64,000 nt of DNA from Brachyspira hampsonii (GTDB lineage: Bacteria > Spirochaetota > Brachyspiria > Brachyspirales > Brachyspiraceae). Location: positions 930,001 through 994,000 of the forward strand of contig NZ_CP019914.1 of assembly GCF_002214805.1 (NCBI RefSeq). The letters are read 5' to 3'. The position numbers and the translations under genes are program-made. The notes beneath the pieces are model-generated. The model did not search any database. It saw only the letters and a list, made by a program, of their open reading frames with translations, and was not told the DNA's origin. Positions 59,089 through 63,743 of this stretch are shown here, piece after piece; position 1 is the stretch's first letter; each line of letters begins with the position of its first letter.

Positions 59089-59979
59089 ATGAGAAAATTA
59101 AGAAACGATTTTATGAAAGATCCAGATTTAATAAAAGTAGTTGATATAGTAAAAAAAGATGATACTTTGTTATTTTGTATAAGAGAAAATAATATTAATG
59201 TTTATTATAGAGGAGTAAGTATTTTAAAATTTGAAGATGGTAAAGGAATAGATAAATCAAATTATAATAAAGTATATCTTTCAAATTCTGAATTAAATAC
59301 ATCTAATGTAGATGAATGGATTAAAAATATTGTAGCATTAAAGAATTTAGTTGATACACAAATAAGTAACTTCCAAACAGAAAAAGAATTTCAGCAATTG
59401 GTGGTTAGAACAAATACAAGTTCTAAATTGGCATTGGAGTCGGATTATTATTTTGTTGATATTGAAAGTATAGATCCTGATATGAAAGAATGCCGATTTG
59501 ATATAGTTGGTTTTAAATGGACTAATAGAAAAAATATTAGTAAATGCCAATTGTGTATCGTAGAAATGAAATATGGTAAAGATGCTTTTGATAATATGAA
59601 TAAACATTTTAGTGATATCTTATATTTAGACGGACATTCTCATCTTGATGATTTAAAAATACAAACTATAAGTCAATTTAGACAATTAATAGAATTAGGA
59701 TTAATAAATTTAAGAAGCGGAGCAGATAAAAATGCAGATGATATTAAAGAATTAGATAAAAAAGCAGAATGTATTATTTTGTTTGCCGATTTGAATCCTA
59801 AAAGTGAGCTTACTTATAGAATATATAAAGAAGCTATAAAAACACAATCTCAATCAAAAAATATAGAAATAAAATTTGCAGTATCTTCATTTATGGGATA
59901 TGCATTATTCAATCAATTTATATTAGACTTGGATCAATTTAAAGACTTCTGCACCAGACTAAAAATAAAAAATTTCTAA
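59089..59979 (+). CDS. Hypothetical protein with PD-(D/E)XK-like nuclease pattern
   Basis: A 296-residue soluble protein. In the second half the phrase RFDIVGFKW is followed, after a stretch of about 15 residues, by QLCIVEMKYG: D138, then E159-x-K161. A hydrophobic strand with Asp, then a strand with ExK, is the core signature of PD-(D/E)XK nucleases. The N-terminal part (residues 1-110) is not recognised. It may be a defence or repair nuclease, or an inactive relative; the assignment is from motif shape only. It is flanked downstream by a strong terminator and a MITE-like element. Confidence 0.55.
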   Translation: MRKLRNDFMKDPDLIKVVDIVKKDDTLLFCIRENNINVYYRGVSILKFEDGKGIDKSNYNKVYLSNSELNTSNVDEWIKNIVALKNLVDTQISNFQTEKEFQQLVVRTNTSSKLALESDYYFVDIESIDPDMKECRFDIVGFKWTNRKNISKCQLCIVEMKYGKDAFDNMNKHFSDILYLDGHSHLDDLKIQTISQFRQLIELGLINLRSGADKNADDIKELDKKAECIILFADLNPKSELTYRIYKEAIKTQSQSKNIEIKFAVSSFMGYALFNQFILDLDQFKDFCTRLKIKNF

Positions 59980-59985
59980 ATTATA

Positions 59986-60033
59986 AAAAGCATACTAATA
60001 TTTATAATGCATATTAGTATGCTTTTATTTTAT
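59986..60033 (+). terminator. Rho-independent terminator
   Basis: A perfect 16-bp stem (59986-60001 with 60011-60026) with a 9-nt loop and a T-rich tail. Confidence 0.85.
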
Positions 60034-60036
60034 TAA

Positions 60037-60249
60037 TAGACTTGTTTCAAAACTACTTGACAAGATTATATATATGAATTTTAGTAATTTATTAATTATA
60101 AAAACAATGTTTTATATATTGTATAACTTATTATTCTAGTATATAAATATGCAGTCCTTCGCCTACCGACCGCAGAGCGTGGCACAACTGTGTACTTCGT
60201 AGGACTAGTCCACACAAATTTATAAAAAATTAGTTTTAAAACAAGTCTA
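60037..60249. mobile_element. MITE-like element with terminal inverted repeats and GC-rich core
   Basis: Left end TAGACTTGTTTCAAAACTA (60037-60055) and right end TAGTTTTAAAACAAGTCTA (60231-60249) are inverted repeats of 19 bp with one mismatch, both ending in TA. This fits a TA target duplication of the kind left by IS630/Tc1-type transposases. There is no transposase gene inside. The core (60151-60215) is far richer in G+C than the genome and contains several small inverted repeats (CCTAC/GTAGG, CACA/TGTG), so it could fold as RNA or DNA structure. Confidence 0.7.
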
Positions 60250-60326
60250 ATATAATACTCACACTACTATTTTTAATATTTTAATATATAATACTTTTCA
60301 CTAATAAAACAAAAGGCTTAAATAAA

Positions 60327-61394
60327 ATGATACTTAAAGAACTTACAATTCGTTCTTTTAGAAATTACAATGAAAATTTATTTGAATTCTCTGACAAAAT
60401 AAATGTGCTTTACGGACATAACGGCTGCGGTAAAACTAATATACTTGAAGCAATATATATGCTTGGAAACGGAGTATCATTTAGAACAAGACTTGACAGA
60501 GAGCTTGTACAAAATGGAAGTGATAATTATTTTTTGAGAGGCATTTTCAGAGAAGATGAATTAAATTATGACACTAATATAGAAATAGCATACCAAAAAA
60601 AAGTAAAAAAGGTATTTATAGATAAAAAAGAAGTGTCTTCAAGAAAAGATTTAATAGGAAGAATACTTTATGTTATATTTCTGCCAAATGATACTGACTT
60701 GGTAATAGCAGAGCCTAAATTAAGAAGAGATTATTTTAACATGCTAATATCAACAATATCATCAGAATATTTGCTTGCATTAATCAAATATAATAAACTC
60801 TTAAAAATGAGAAATATTTGTATCACTACAAAACCTAATGAAGCATACATTTATAATAATGATATAGCCAAACTTTCCATTTATATAGCTGGTGAAAATA
60901 AAAAATATTCTTCTCTTTTAGAAGATAAAATGAATGAAATCTATAAAAATATTTTTAATAATGAAAACCCTTATGCTATAAAATATCAGTCTACCATAGA
61001 AGACATATCAAATGAAAATGAATACATAAAAAAACTAGAAAGCACTTTAAACGAACAAATAAGAATGCGTACCACATATTTTGGGATACATAGAGCAGAG
61101 TATCAATTCTTTTACAAAGATTCGCTTTCAAAAAAATTCTCATCTCAGGGCGAGAAAAGAATGTTTACTCTTATAATGAAACTTGCAAGTGAAAAAATAT
61201 TATCAGAATACAGAAAAAAATCCCCTATTCTGCTTATTGATGATGCTATGCTTGAGCTTGATAATACAAGACGAGATAATATACTTGAATACATAAAAAC
61301 ATTAGGACAGGTATTTATTACCGTTACAGAAAAAGAGAAAGTGAAAAACTTTGAAAACGGAAAAGTTTTTGATATACCAAATATAAGAATGTAA
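60327..61394 (+). CDS. recF: DNA replication and repair protein RecF
   Basis: A 355-residue SMC-like ATPase that helps load RecA at gaps. Walker A is GHNGCGKTN (about residues 31-39), the signature is SSQGEKRMFTLIMKLA and Walker B ILLIDDAMLELD. Length matches the family. In most bacteria recF sits beside dnaN and gyrB near the origin; here it stands alone in an accessory-looking area next to a MITE-like element. It ends close to a DUF285 fragment. Confidence 0.95.
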   Translation: MILKELTIRSFRNYNENLFEFSDKINVLYGHNGCGKTNILEAIYMLGNGVSFRTRLDRELVQNGSDNYFLRGIFREDELNYDTNIEIAYQKKVKKVFIDKKEVSSRKDLIGRILYVIFLPNDTDLVIAEPKLRRDYFNMLISTISSEYLLALIKYNKLLKMRNICITTKPNEAYIYNNDIAKLSIYIAGENKKYSSLLEDKMNEIYKNIFNNENPYAIKYQSTIEDISNENEYIKKLESTLNEQIRMRTTYFGIHRAEYQFFYKDSLSKKFSSQGEKRMFTLIMKLASEKILSEYRKKSPILLIDDAMLELDNTRRDNILEYIKTLGQVFITVTEKEKVKNFENGKVFDIPNIRM

Positions 61395-61414: not shown

Positions 61415-61561
61415 ATTAAATACAAACCTCAAACTAGAGAAGAATTGCAAAAGTTGGCGAAAGATGAAAATATATATTTGCGTGATATTGATACAAGTTT
61501 AATTACTGATATGAGCAGATTATTCAGAAATACAGTTTTCAGGTTCGCCTATAGAAAATAA
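61415..61561 (+). pseudogene. DUF285/BspA-type surface-protein fragment lacking a start codon
   Basis: Reads KYKPQTREELQKLAKDEN... DIDTSLITDMSRLF in frame to a TAA (61559-61561). This is the N-terminal part typical of DUF285 (BspA-like leucine-rich surface) proteins, cut off before the repeats. There is no ATG in frame after the upstream TAG at 61406. It is the left copy of a 173-bp direct repeat. Confidence 0.75.
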
Positions 61562-61589
61562 TCCACATTCTTAGTATATAGAAAATTAA
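61417..61589 (+). repeat. Direct repeat, left copy (173 bp)
   Basis: Aligns with 63571-63743 without gaps; about 12 mismatches in 173 bases by eye (about 93% identity). The pair brackets the ATPase and nuclease genes. Confidence 0.9.
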
Positions 61590-61642
61590 TTGATTATAGT
61601 ACAATTATATAATAGAAATGAGTAATAAAAATAAGAATTATA

Positions 61643-62152
61643 TTATAATATTAGAGGATTTTTGGATGAACATATTATTTTATTTCCATTAGATCGTCTT
61701 TTATCATTATTTGAAACAACAATAACATAATAAATTAAATTAAACATATTCTTAGGTTTTATTTTAGATTTATCATACAAAATTTTTGCTAATTTTTTTG
61801 ATTTATTTTCTATACCATGAGGAATTTTATTTTTTTCTTTACTAACTATATAAGTCTTTAATTCTTTAGTATCTATTAAATGTTTTAACTTAACATTATT
61901 TGAAATATTTTTAATCGTTTCTATAATTTGAATATATGCTTTATCTATTTTTTGACCTTTTAATTCTATAAAATTAGAAACTTCTTTTTCTCTATATGCT
62001 AAATAATCACATTTTTTTACATCATCACTAAATATACCATTATCGACTTTTATAATAAAAATATCATTATCTGCTTTTATATAAAGTTTTGTTTGTGCAT
62101 CTGACAAAGTTTTTATATCATCTTTTTTTAATAACTCATAATTACTGTTCAT
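61643..62152 (-). CDS. Small predicted PD-(D/E)XK-type nuclease, partner of the ATPase
   Basis: A 169-residue soluble protein. CDYLAYREKEVSNFIELKG gives D49, then E63-x-K65, with a hydrophobic strand before each, followed by a helix (KAYIQIIETIKN). That is the core of the restriction-endonuclease fold. The remainder is Lys-rich and may bind nucleic acid (KSKIKPKNMF). The gene overlaps the upstream ATPase gene by 11 bp, so both are made together. No family name can be given; the assignment is from motif shape and gene pairing. Confidence 0.6.
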   Translation of the reverse strand: MNSNYELLKKDDIKTLSDAQTKLYIKADNDIFIIKVDNGIFSDDVKKCDYLAYREKEVSNFIELKGQKIDKAYIQIIETIKNISNNVKLKHLIDTKELKTYIVSKEKNKIPHGIENKSKKLAKILYDKSKIKPKNMFNLIYYVIVVSNNDKRRSNGNKIICSSKNPLIL

Positions 62153-63434
62153 TATTTAATTCCATATCAAATAATTTAGTATATGTTTCATTAATAGTAT
62201 TAGATATATCATCTATTTCTTCGCAGTTAATTTCATTTTCTTCATTAATAAGATTTGTATATCTAAAATCATTTAAATATAATTTAAAAGCATTTATTTC
62301 ATTAGGATTAATATATGAATATTCCCCCACAATATTATTAATTTTTTCAATTTTTTCTTTATTGTTTTTATAATTTTCTTTTAATTTTCCAGCATACAGT
62401 AAATTATTTGCACTTGTCAATATATAAGGACTATGAGTTGTAATCAAAATATTACTATTGGTTATATTCATAAAATTAACAATGAAGTCTATAATTTCTT
62501 TTTGCATATTAGGATATAAATGGGCTTCTGGTTCTTCTATTATAACAAAAATATTTTTTTTATTAAGCCATATTATACCTAATAAAACATTTAAAAGCCA
62601 CAGTATTTCCTGCTGTCCAGACGATATTTTATCTACAGGTATTTTTTTATTAGTATTATCCAATTTTATATATCCAAACTTATCATCACAAAAATACTGC
62701 CCCCCCATATATTTTTCTATTTTTTTATTCATTTCATTTAAAATTATTTTTTTGTCATCATCATTGACATTTTTTACAAAATTTCTAACTCCATCTTTAA
62801 ATAAGAACTCTATTTTTTCAACAAGTGTAAGAAAAGGATAAAATATAAAATCTATAGTATTATAATCCAATCTAGTTCTTTGATTATTCAATAATGCTAT
62901 AGAACTTCTTGAGGCTGGTATATAATAAGTTATTAATTCATTTTCAAAAAAATCATTTATTTCTTTACCTATTCCTCTTTCAAAAATATCTTCAAACCTT
63001 ACCACACTATTAACATTTAAATATTCCCCAAAAAGTCTTTTTATATCTATTTCTAATTTATTAAAAAATATTATTATATTCTCACTATAATTAATATCTA
63101 GATTATTATTTTTTTTTGTAATTTCTATATAAGTATTATATTTGTATACATATTTTAAATATAAATCATTATCTATATTCTCCAATTTCCCAAATATACT
63201 TATAAAAAAATCTTTTATTATATTATAATATATTTCTTTTATCCTGTATTGTATTTTATTTTTATAAGCAAATATATAAAATCTTATTTGAGTATTTATT
63301 TCTTTGAAGAAAAATATTGCTTTACTTATTGTGCTTTTTCCTGAAGATTGTTCGCCTATAATCAAATTAAATCTATTAATTTCCATTTCAAAATCTTTTA
63401 CTACAAGCAAATTCTTAATAATTATTTTCTGCAT
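62142..63434 (-). CDS. AAA/ABC-type ATPase (AAA_15/AAA_21-like, OLD-related)
   Basis: A 430-residue SMC/ABC-like ATPase. Walker A GEQSSGKST (residues 27-35), ABC signature ISSGQQE, Walker B VIIEEPEAHLYP (with two Glu), and the H-loop ITTHSPYIL. The middle region (residues ~90-260) is a helical insertion. No TOPRIM domain is attached, which separates it from OLD nucleases. The start is ATG 63434 with GGAG five nt upstream; a longer ATG at 63452 has no such site. Its product probably gates the small nuclease encoded by the overlapping gene, as in other ATPase-nuclease defence pairs. Confidence 0.85.
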   Translation of the reverse strand: MQKIIIKNLLVVKDFEMEINRFNLIIGEQSSGKSTISKAIFFFKEINTQIRFYIFAYKNKIQYRIKEIYYNIIKDFFISIFGKLENIDNDLYLKYVYKYNTYIEITKKNNNLDINYSENIIIFFNKLEIDIKRLFGEYLNVNSVVRFEDIFERGIGKEINDFFENELITYYIPASRSSIALLNNQRTRLDYNTIDFIFYPFLTLVEKIEFLFKDGVRNFVKNVNDDDKKIILNEMNKKIEKYMGGQYFCDDKFGYIKLDNTNKKIPVDKISSGQQEILWLLNVLLGIIWLNKKNIFVIIEEPEAHLYPNMQKEIIDFIVNFMNITNSNILITTHSPYILTSANNLLYAGKLKENYKNNKEKIEKINNIVGEYSYINPNEINAFKLYLNDFRYTNLINEENEINCEEIDDISNTINETYTKLFDMELNNEQ

Positions 63435-63461
63435 ATTATCTCCATTAATCATATAAAAACT

Positions 63462-63490
63462 ATTATACTTAAAATATAAAAAATTGTCTA
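63462..63490 (-). promoter_or_regulatory. Candidate promoter of the ATPase-nuclease operon
   Basis: On the minus strand TAGACA (63490-63485), a 17-bp spacer and TATAAT (63467-63462). The leader to the ATG at 63434 is about 20-25 nt with a ribosome-binding site. Confidence 0.6.
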
Positions 63491-63565
63491 TATTGAAAAT
63501 TTTAGGTTTATATATATATTATAAAAAATAGCATTAATAATTATATGTTTTTATAGGAATACATT

Positions 63566-63715
63566 ATGCATAAATACAAACCTCAAACTATAGAAGAATT
63601 GCAAAAGTTGGTGAAAGATGAAAATACATATTTAGGTGATATTGATACAAGTTTAATTACTGATATGAGCAGATTATTTAGAAATACATTTTTCAGGTTA
63701 GCCTATAGAAAATAA
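63566..63715 (+). CDS. Truncated DUF285/BspA-type reading frame (49 residues)
   Basis: ATG at 63566, with TAGGA 10 bp before it, reads HKYKPQTIEELQKLVKDENT... DIDTSLITDMSRLFRNTFF and stops at 63713-63715. It has the N-terminal region of DUF285 surface proteins but no leucine-rich repeats and no signal peptide. It may still be translated as a 49-residue peptide; more likely it is a remnant. Right copy of the direct repeat; contrast with the left copy, which has lost its ATG. Confidence 0.55.
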   Translation: MHKYKPQTIEELQKLVKDENTYLGDIDTSLITDMSRLFRNTFFRLAYRK

Positions 63716-63743
63716 TCCTCTTTCTTTGTATATAGTAAATTAA
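63571..63743 (+). repeat. Direct repeat, right copy (173 bp)
   Basis: Gap-free match to 61417-61589, including the 3' flank after the stop codon (GTATATAG ... AAATTAA). Confidence 0.9.

Follow-up and report, generated by a model that had tools for sequence, protein, structure and literature searches.

A two-gene ATPase and putative nuclease pair of Brachyspira, probably a divergent branch of the defence candidate PDC-M29

The locus and its genes

In the spirochaete Brachyspira hampsonii, a stretch of 64,000 nucleotides of contig NZ_CP019914.1 (positions 930,001 to 994,000 of the forward strand, assembly GCF_002214805.1; hereafter the window) carries two genes that are the subject of this work: gene A, which encodes an ATPase of the ABC type, and gene B, which encodes a small protein with a nuclease-like core. 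The pair is preceded by a promoter-like site, is bracketed by two copies of a direct repeat and lies beside a gene that we take to be recF (Table 1). The analysis described here suggests that A and B probably constitute a defence module, a divergent Brachyspira branch of PDC-M29, in which an ABC-type ATPase would be coupled to a PD-(D/E)XK nuclease. The two genes form a real, conserved and horizontally moving pair; the repeats are not part of how it works, although they may help it to be gained or lost. Comparisons drew on 392 genomes of the phylum and on 26 from Brachyspira, with a single genome for each species; labels beginning with G and L denote genomes and loci, respectively, G000 being the genome of the window.

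An earlier interpretation, made from the letters of the window and hereafter called the sequence-only reading, had described the positions of both genes, their 11-bp overlap, the D49...E63-x-K65 core of B and the promoter, all of which are present. It had also started gene A at 63434, and this choice is preferable to the start in the list of open reading frames (ORFs), where the gene extends from 62142 to 63452 on the minus strand, because a GGAG precedes the ATG at 63434 and because G008, one of five copies of the same subfamily, has ATT at the upstream position. The promoter-like site agrees with the consensus at 11 of 12 positions, and among the five copies it departs from this form in G008, where the spacer measures 16 nt, and in G019, which has TAGACT. 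Support for it comes from this conservation and not from a promoter scan, since the latter yielded 19 sites, fewer than the mean of 27.4 in shuffled sequences.

Table 1. Coordinates, within the window, of the gene pair and of the features that surround it.
Feature	Position	Strand	Remarks
Gene A: ABC/SMC-type ATPase, 430 amino acids (AAA_15/AAA_21)	62142..63434	-	ORF list; start chosen from sequence and copies
Gene B: PD-(D/E)XK-like protein, 169 amino acids	61643..62152	-	Core D37, D49, E63-L-K65, Q75
Promoter-like TAGACA-N17-TATAAT of the two-gene operon	63462..63490	-	In all five subfamily-one copies, with small changes
Left copy of internally deleted DUF285 gene (direct repeat)	61417..61589	+	
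Right copy of the same DUF285 remnant (direct repeat)	63571..63743	+	
recF-like flanking gene	60327..61394	+	Pfam: SMC_N

The ATPase and its small partner

The product of gene A matches Pfam families AAA_15 (7e-23) and AAA_21 (2e-18) and no TOPRIM family of Pfam at E<=1, as expected from its earlier description as an ABC-type ATPase devoid of that domain. Four motifs, to which we assign the names Walker A (GEQSSGKST), signature (ISSGQQE), Walker B (VIIEEPEAHLYP) and H-loop (THSPY), have cores that are unchanged in all nine Brachyspira copies of the gene. When a profile built from eight PDC-M29A proteins, without Brachyspira rows (profile A4), was applied to Brachyspira ATPases, five ATPases of the pair scored 75-89 bits, as compared to a maximum of 35.2 bits for 16 others (393-487 amino acids, from 19 loci, L028-L046). 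By this profile test, gene A is closer to PDC-M29A than to other ATPases.

Gene B matches no family in Pfam or PADLOC at E<=1. Weak rows were not used, be it those of gene B itself (NCBIfam HYExAFE, E 0.045; phrog_28128, of unknown function, E 0.0028) or that of the B protein of L109 with Pfam PriX (E 0.0015), which fell below the cut-off. The presumed catalytic residues are nevertheless well conserved: D49, E63 and K65 are invariant in the nine Brachyspira copies, and D37, E63, K65 and Q75 in all 20 B proteins of a wider alignment, which leaves out the incomplete B genes found at L129 and L130 as well as the B protein of Persicobacter; by eye, the position of D49 is occupied by D in 17 of these proteins and by E in three. 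A structural model generated from the 20-sequence alignment displays a predicted local distance difference test score (pLDDT) of 91.4 and a predicted template modelling score (pTM) of 0.89, and replaced an earlier model from the nine Brachyspira sequences alone (pLDDT 53.5), which was not used. The top 12 rows of a structural comparison with this model, at Z 5.0-5.7, comprise ten nucleases (FokI, Can1, Can2, Cdn1, BsmI and EndoMS/NucS), which we take to be PD-(D/E)XK enzymes, and two rows of acetyl-CoA carboxylase. Sequence comparison of gene B with solved structures returned only rows that we took to be chance (best with the 20-sequence profile, eIF3 subunit B, E 0.0096), and a Foldseek search against viral models gave no match under E 0.001. 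Judging from the predicted model, gene B likely has a PD-(D/E)XK nuclease fold. The sequence-only reading had anticipated such a partner; the D...E-x-K core agrees with this, as do ten of the top 12 structural rows, each of them a weak match.

Three of the nucleases retrieved, Can1, Can2 and Cdn1, are CRISPR ancillary enzymes, a group in which some members act on both RNA and DNA. These rows lend some credit to a variant of the same module in which B would cut RNA (tRNA, for example) and defence would consist of halting growth of the infected cell. We regard this variant as rather unlikely, considering that PD-(D/E)XK enzymes are mostly DNA cutters; in addition PtuB, an HNH protein, is unlike gene B.

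A conserved pair with a patchy distribution

Gene A was detected at E<1e-90 in nine of the 26 Brachyspira genomes, and the same nine carry gene B; in every one of them the two genes adjoin, on the same strand and in the order A then B. The remaining 17 genomes, some of which are incomplete, have no pair. The pairing proposed from a single locus therefore extends across genomes, with further pairs outside the genus, and the presence and absence that the sequence-only reading had looked to among related strains also took the form of a patchy distribution with differing flanks, a close relative having the site without the pair there.

The nine copies fall into two subfamilies. In subfamily one (G000, G009, G013, G008 and G019), B proteins are 83-86% identical to that of the window and the pair occupies four different sites, with G000 and G009 at a common site beside recF. 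In subfamily two (G005, G023, G003 and G020), B proteins are 57-60% identical to that of the window, and one site harbors the pair in all four genomes. At the DNA level, the pair of G019 is 90.6-91.6% identical to those of the other four subfamily-one carriers, the corresponding values for recF being 80.8-81.9%; since the pair is more alike than this one yardstick gene, horizontal transfer of the subfamily-one pair between species is indicated. The unit conserved in the five copies consists of the promoter, the two genes and approximately 25 bp past B, and the flanks differ beyond it, except that G000 and G009 both keep part of a DUF285 remnant on the ATPase side. No integrase or transposase was noticed beside the pair in the ORF list, which was inspected by eye over the first 60 residues of each ORF, with no family search. 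A contig search with gene B had one Brachyspira relative, 85% identical in B, among the matches listed. At L015 and L016, the pair of G019 and those of subfamily two both lie upstream of the same gene run, which is formed by a gene of 450-463 amino acids followed by genes that are presumably grpE- and dnaK-like. The two unlike branches thus have a common chromosomal neighbourhood.

A compact operon of two overlapping genes, patchily distributed and conserved as a unit that holds only a promoter and the genes themselves, could also correspond to a selfish addiction pair of the toxin-antitoxin (TA) kind, in which B would be toxic alone, A would restrain it, and selection would act on maintenance of the pair and not on defence. 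Pfam describes AAA_21 as 'putative AbiEii toxin, Type IV TA system', but it is the ATPase that carries this family, and not B. A full ABC-type ATPase is rare in toxin-antitoxin pairs, relatives of the pair adjoin restriction genes, and the pair can evidently be lost, since both genes look degraded at L130. Taken together, these points make an addiction pair improbable.

The restriction genes in question are found at several loci. On plasmid CP012867.1 of Persicobacter, a PDC-M29 pair (A 6e-147, B 6e-48) stands between a type III methyltransferase gene and a restriction-like gene, presumably DUF262-like, which matches the PADLOC Orf5, HEC-06 and type IV restriction models. In G008, some 190 bp separate the end of a type IV restriction enzyme gene (6e-36) from the ATPase start that follows it, and a type II methyltransferase gene is found upstream, about 4 kb from the pair, while in G005 a methyltransferase is located about 4.5 kb from the pair. 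These checks for defence families covered G008, G005, one neighbour of the pair in G019, for which none matched, and an orphan gene of the window described below.

Kinship with PDC-M29

A profile constructed from the nine Brachyspira B copies (profile A1) and run over the 392 phylum genomes matched, in addition to the nine, G364 (E 1.2e-6), G105 (2e-5) and G367 (0.01); a match in G021 (E 2.4e-4), inside a frame of 726 amino acids, was left out as probably spurious. In both G105 and G367, the B gene is placed directly downstream of an ATPase gene that matches PDC-M29A, at 1.6e-93 and 6.4e-95, respectively. The PDC-M29B model, in turn, recognizes the B proteins of G105 (4e-6) and G364 (5e-7), and gives no match for that of G367. 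Furthermore, a profile-profile comparison between Brachyspira B and PDC-M29B yields a probability of 87% (E 3.7e-6), with the CD and (V/I)E(L/I)K cores of both aligned. Ten loci of the phylum are found by the PDC-M29B model itself, six of which have an intact ATPase ORF directly upstream and three of which have pieces of one; none was found at the tenth, L129.

On the strength of these sequence comparisons, the pair is a divergent variant of PDC-M29, a catalogued and unvalidated defence candidate. The sequence-only reading had considered the system undescribed, a claim that has to be given up in view of the profile of A, the profile-profile match of B and the pairs outside the genus. Candidates of the PDC series were derived through 'guilt by embedding' and still await validation, according to two papers (PMC12988326, PMC10855318). 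A literature search, whose reach did not include bioRxiv preprints, found no paper that names PDC-M29, and among the matches listed for Brachyspira and defence no title concerned the A-B pair. Microcystis phage Mic1 (MN013189.1, L131:4001-5239) encodes a PDC-M29A ATPase (1.8e-187), next to which no B gene is annotated. Searches for the B protein of L109 in plasmids and phages, and with profile A4 in viral contigs, led nowhere.

A number of observations weigh against assignment of the pair to a PDC-M29 defence module. With regard to gene B, the PADLOC PDC-M29B model gives no hit to the protein of the window at E<=1, and the ten phylum genomes in which it finds a match include no Brachyspira; structural matches are weak, with Z no higher than 5.7, a level that the tool itself calls common, and acetyl-CoA carboxylase accounts for two of 12 rows; and the Foldseek search of the model was not significant (best E 0.09). 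With regard to gene A, PADLOC ranks PDC-M29A third (60.7 bits, E 3.7e-17), behind two general AriA models, and the reverse of the profile A4 test is less clean, the scores obtained with a Brachyspira profile being 36-79 bits for ten PDC-M29A proteins and reaching 45 bits for other ATPases. The pairing is also imperfect outside the genus, where one of the ten PDC-M29B loci, L129, lacks a visible ATPase and where no ATPase was found on the 4.7-kb contig of G364 that carries the B-like gene L108:1028-1483. Finally, in all four genomes of subfamily two the pair keeps to a single place on the chromosome, close to heat-shock-like genes, which is less typical of mobile defence, a restriction gene directly beside the pair was seen in just one of the nine Brachyspira copies (G008), and the window's own B was not found in phage, plasmid or viral-contig records. 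The B-like gene of L108 stands behind a gene that may encode another nuclease.

Flanking repeats and the recF site

The direct repeats that bracket the pair, previously reported as free of gaps and about 93% identical over 173 bp, are indeed gap-free and identical at 161 of 173 positions, which is far beyond chance, as the next longest direct repeat in the 6-kb region has 60 nt at 70%. In each repeat, positions 2-116 or so match 5' ends of DUF285 genes and positions 120-173 or so match a 3' end. Both copies thus descend from one internally deleted DUF285 gene; the sequence-only reading, which had called each copy a DUF285 gene fragment, was right about the origin and imprecise about the form, a 5' part being joined to a 3' part.

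It had further pictured a mobile or recombination-inserted cassette, placed by homologous repeats. Repeats that were the termini of a transposable or integrative unit would explain why gap-free copies bracket the pair and why G023 has one copy at this site and no pair. The conserved unit, however, stops at the promoter and some 25 bp after B, inside the repeats; the only ORFs of at least 50 amino acids between the repeats are A and B, plus three frames that run antisense to the two genes; G009, which has the pair at the same site, shows a partial remnant on just one flank; G013, G008 and G019 lack two flanking copies; and the same internal DUF285 deletion is present in both repeats. The proposal that the repeats are such termini was rejected, and we judge it very improbable, since none of the other four subfamily-one pairs lies between two repeat copies and both copies are DUF285 remnants.

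A strong match to the recF-like gene exists in 22 of 26 Brachyspira genomes, one of them partial, and different genes follow it. Among 21 recF loci, the pair is present in two (G000 and G009) and a DUF285 remnant without it in two more (G023 and G003); in nine, judging from about 270 bases, a DUF285-like gene immediately follows recF, and the remaining eight differ from all of these. An accessory role in DNA repair tied to recF could be imagined from the position of the pair beside this gene in two genomes and from the fact that gene A and RecF are both ATPases of the SMC/ABC type. This distribution largely refutes such a role, which is rejected here as exceedingly improbable: 19 of the recF loci have no pair, the other seven carriers have it elsewhere (for G020, whose assembly yielded no full recF, this is judged from a 5.5-kb contig), and 17 Brachyspira genomes do without it.

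Once one repeat unit and the pair are subtracted, the sequence of G000 aligns colinearly with that of G023 over some 480 bases. The pair may have entered at a remnant by recombination, or G023 may have lost it between two remnants; loss in G023 and G003 is a fair reading given that G009 has the pair at the same place. The flanking repeats stand outside the machinery, and may offer a route of homologous recombination for its loss or gain at the recF site. In G003, a gene with a CapP/RmrA-like peptidase part and, by eye, a nuclease-like N-terminus (L078:5291-6505, minus strand) is found behind recF in place of the pair.

Three of the four distinct subfamily-one sites lie near DUF285 loci, compared to 1.0-2.5% of the chromosome that is as near in two genomes (P 4e-6 to 6e-5). 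This enrichment was computed post hoc from hand-copied coordinates and ignores DUF285 scraps, and is suggestive only. Overall, the findings suggest that decayed DUF285 genes are places where cargo genes come and go in Brachyspira. A broader proposal would make the Brachyspira branch a separate type of defence with its own trigger or target, undetected as a pair by the catalogues searched: a bare two-gene cassette that spreads between species and settles by homologous recombination at decaying DUF285 loci, these repeated genes being a common parking place for defence cargo. We hold this proposal to be unlikely.

Two further features lie on the other side of recF. The orphan gene mentioned above (59089-59979, plus strand) encodes 296 amino acids and is present in five of 26 Brachyspira genomes, split in two of these; an FDIV...IVEMK stretch resembles a PD-(D/E)XK core by eye, and no family of Pfam or PADLOC, defence families included, was matched. 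The other, at 60030-60256, is a short element whose 25-nt ends are inverted (88% complementary) and which contains no ORF of 50 amino acids; the genome has 52 stretches that match it, many incompletely, so that it probably represents a family of miniature inverted-repeat elements.

A possible mode of action

If A and B do act as a PDC-M29 module, A would dimerise and form composite ATP sites, and the two proteins, which probably come from the same transcript given that their genes overlap, would associate in a complex. A, with B bound, would sense a sign of an invading phage or plasmid, probably an unusual state of DNA or nucleotides, upon which ATP binding or hydrolysis by A would release or load B. 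The latter would then cut nucleic acid, most likely DNA, so that the DNA of the invader or of the infected cell would be destroyed. PDC-M29 would thereby gain a concrete biochemical reading, that of an ATPase-gated PD-(D/E)XK nuclease with four invariant residues. It is also wider than its models, as a diverged branch to which the B model is blind is present in nine of 26 Brachyspira genomes.

Comparison with known systems

The pair resembles a number of known systems in part. Septu (PtuA-PtuB) and the retron-associated PtuAB consist of an ATPase gene and a gene for a small nuclease partner, and PtuA models and chains match the ATPase region of gene A. PtuB, however, is an HNH protein, whereas the core of gene B is D...E-x-K and the gene matches neither HNH nor PtuB; membership in Septu was thus rejected. 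Gabija and OLD have an ATPase core related to that of gene A, which the listed GajA models match within residues 262-373 at best, but gene A has no TOPRIM match and gene B no helicase match, and this assignment was also rejected, in keeping with the earlier exclusion of Septu and of OLD/Gabija by composition. In the case of PARIS (AriA-AriB), the AriA models that head the PADLOC scores of gene A do so over the AAA_15/AAA_21 region; gene B has no match to AriB (DUF4435) at E<=1 in PADLOC or Pfam, and PARIS was rejected as well.

PDC-M29, the phage defence candidate listed in PADLOC-DB 2.0.0 with genes A and B, has the same gene order and adjacency, a homologous ATPase that includes the conserved C-terminal tail, and a homologous small protein with a CD...(V/I)E(L/I)K...Q core. 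The differences reside in the small protein: that of Brachyspira, which the PADLOC model misses, shares 18-24% identity with eight aligned PDC-M29B rows, and by eye its C-terminal part is longer and its N-terminal part shorter.

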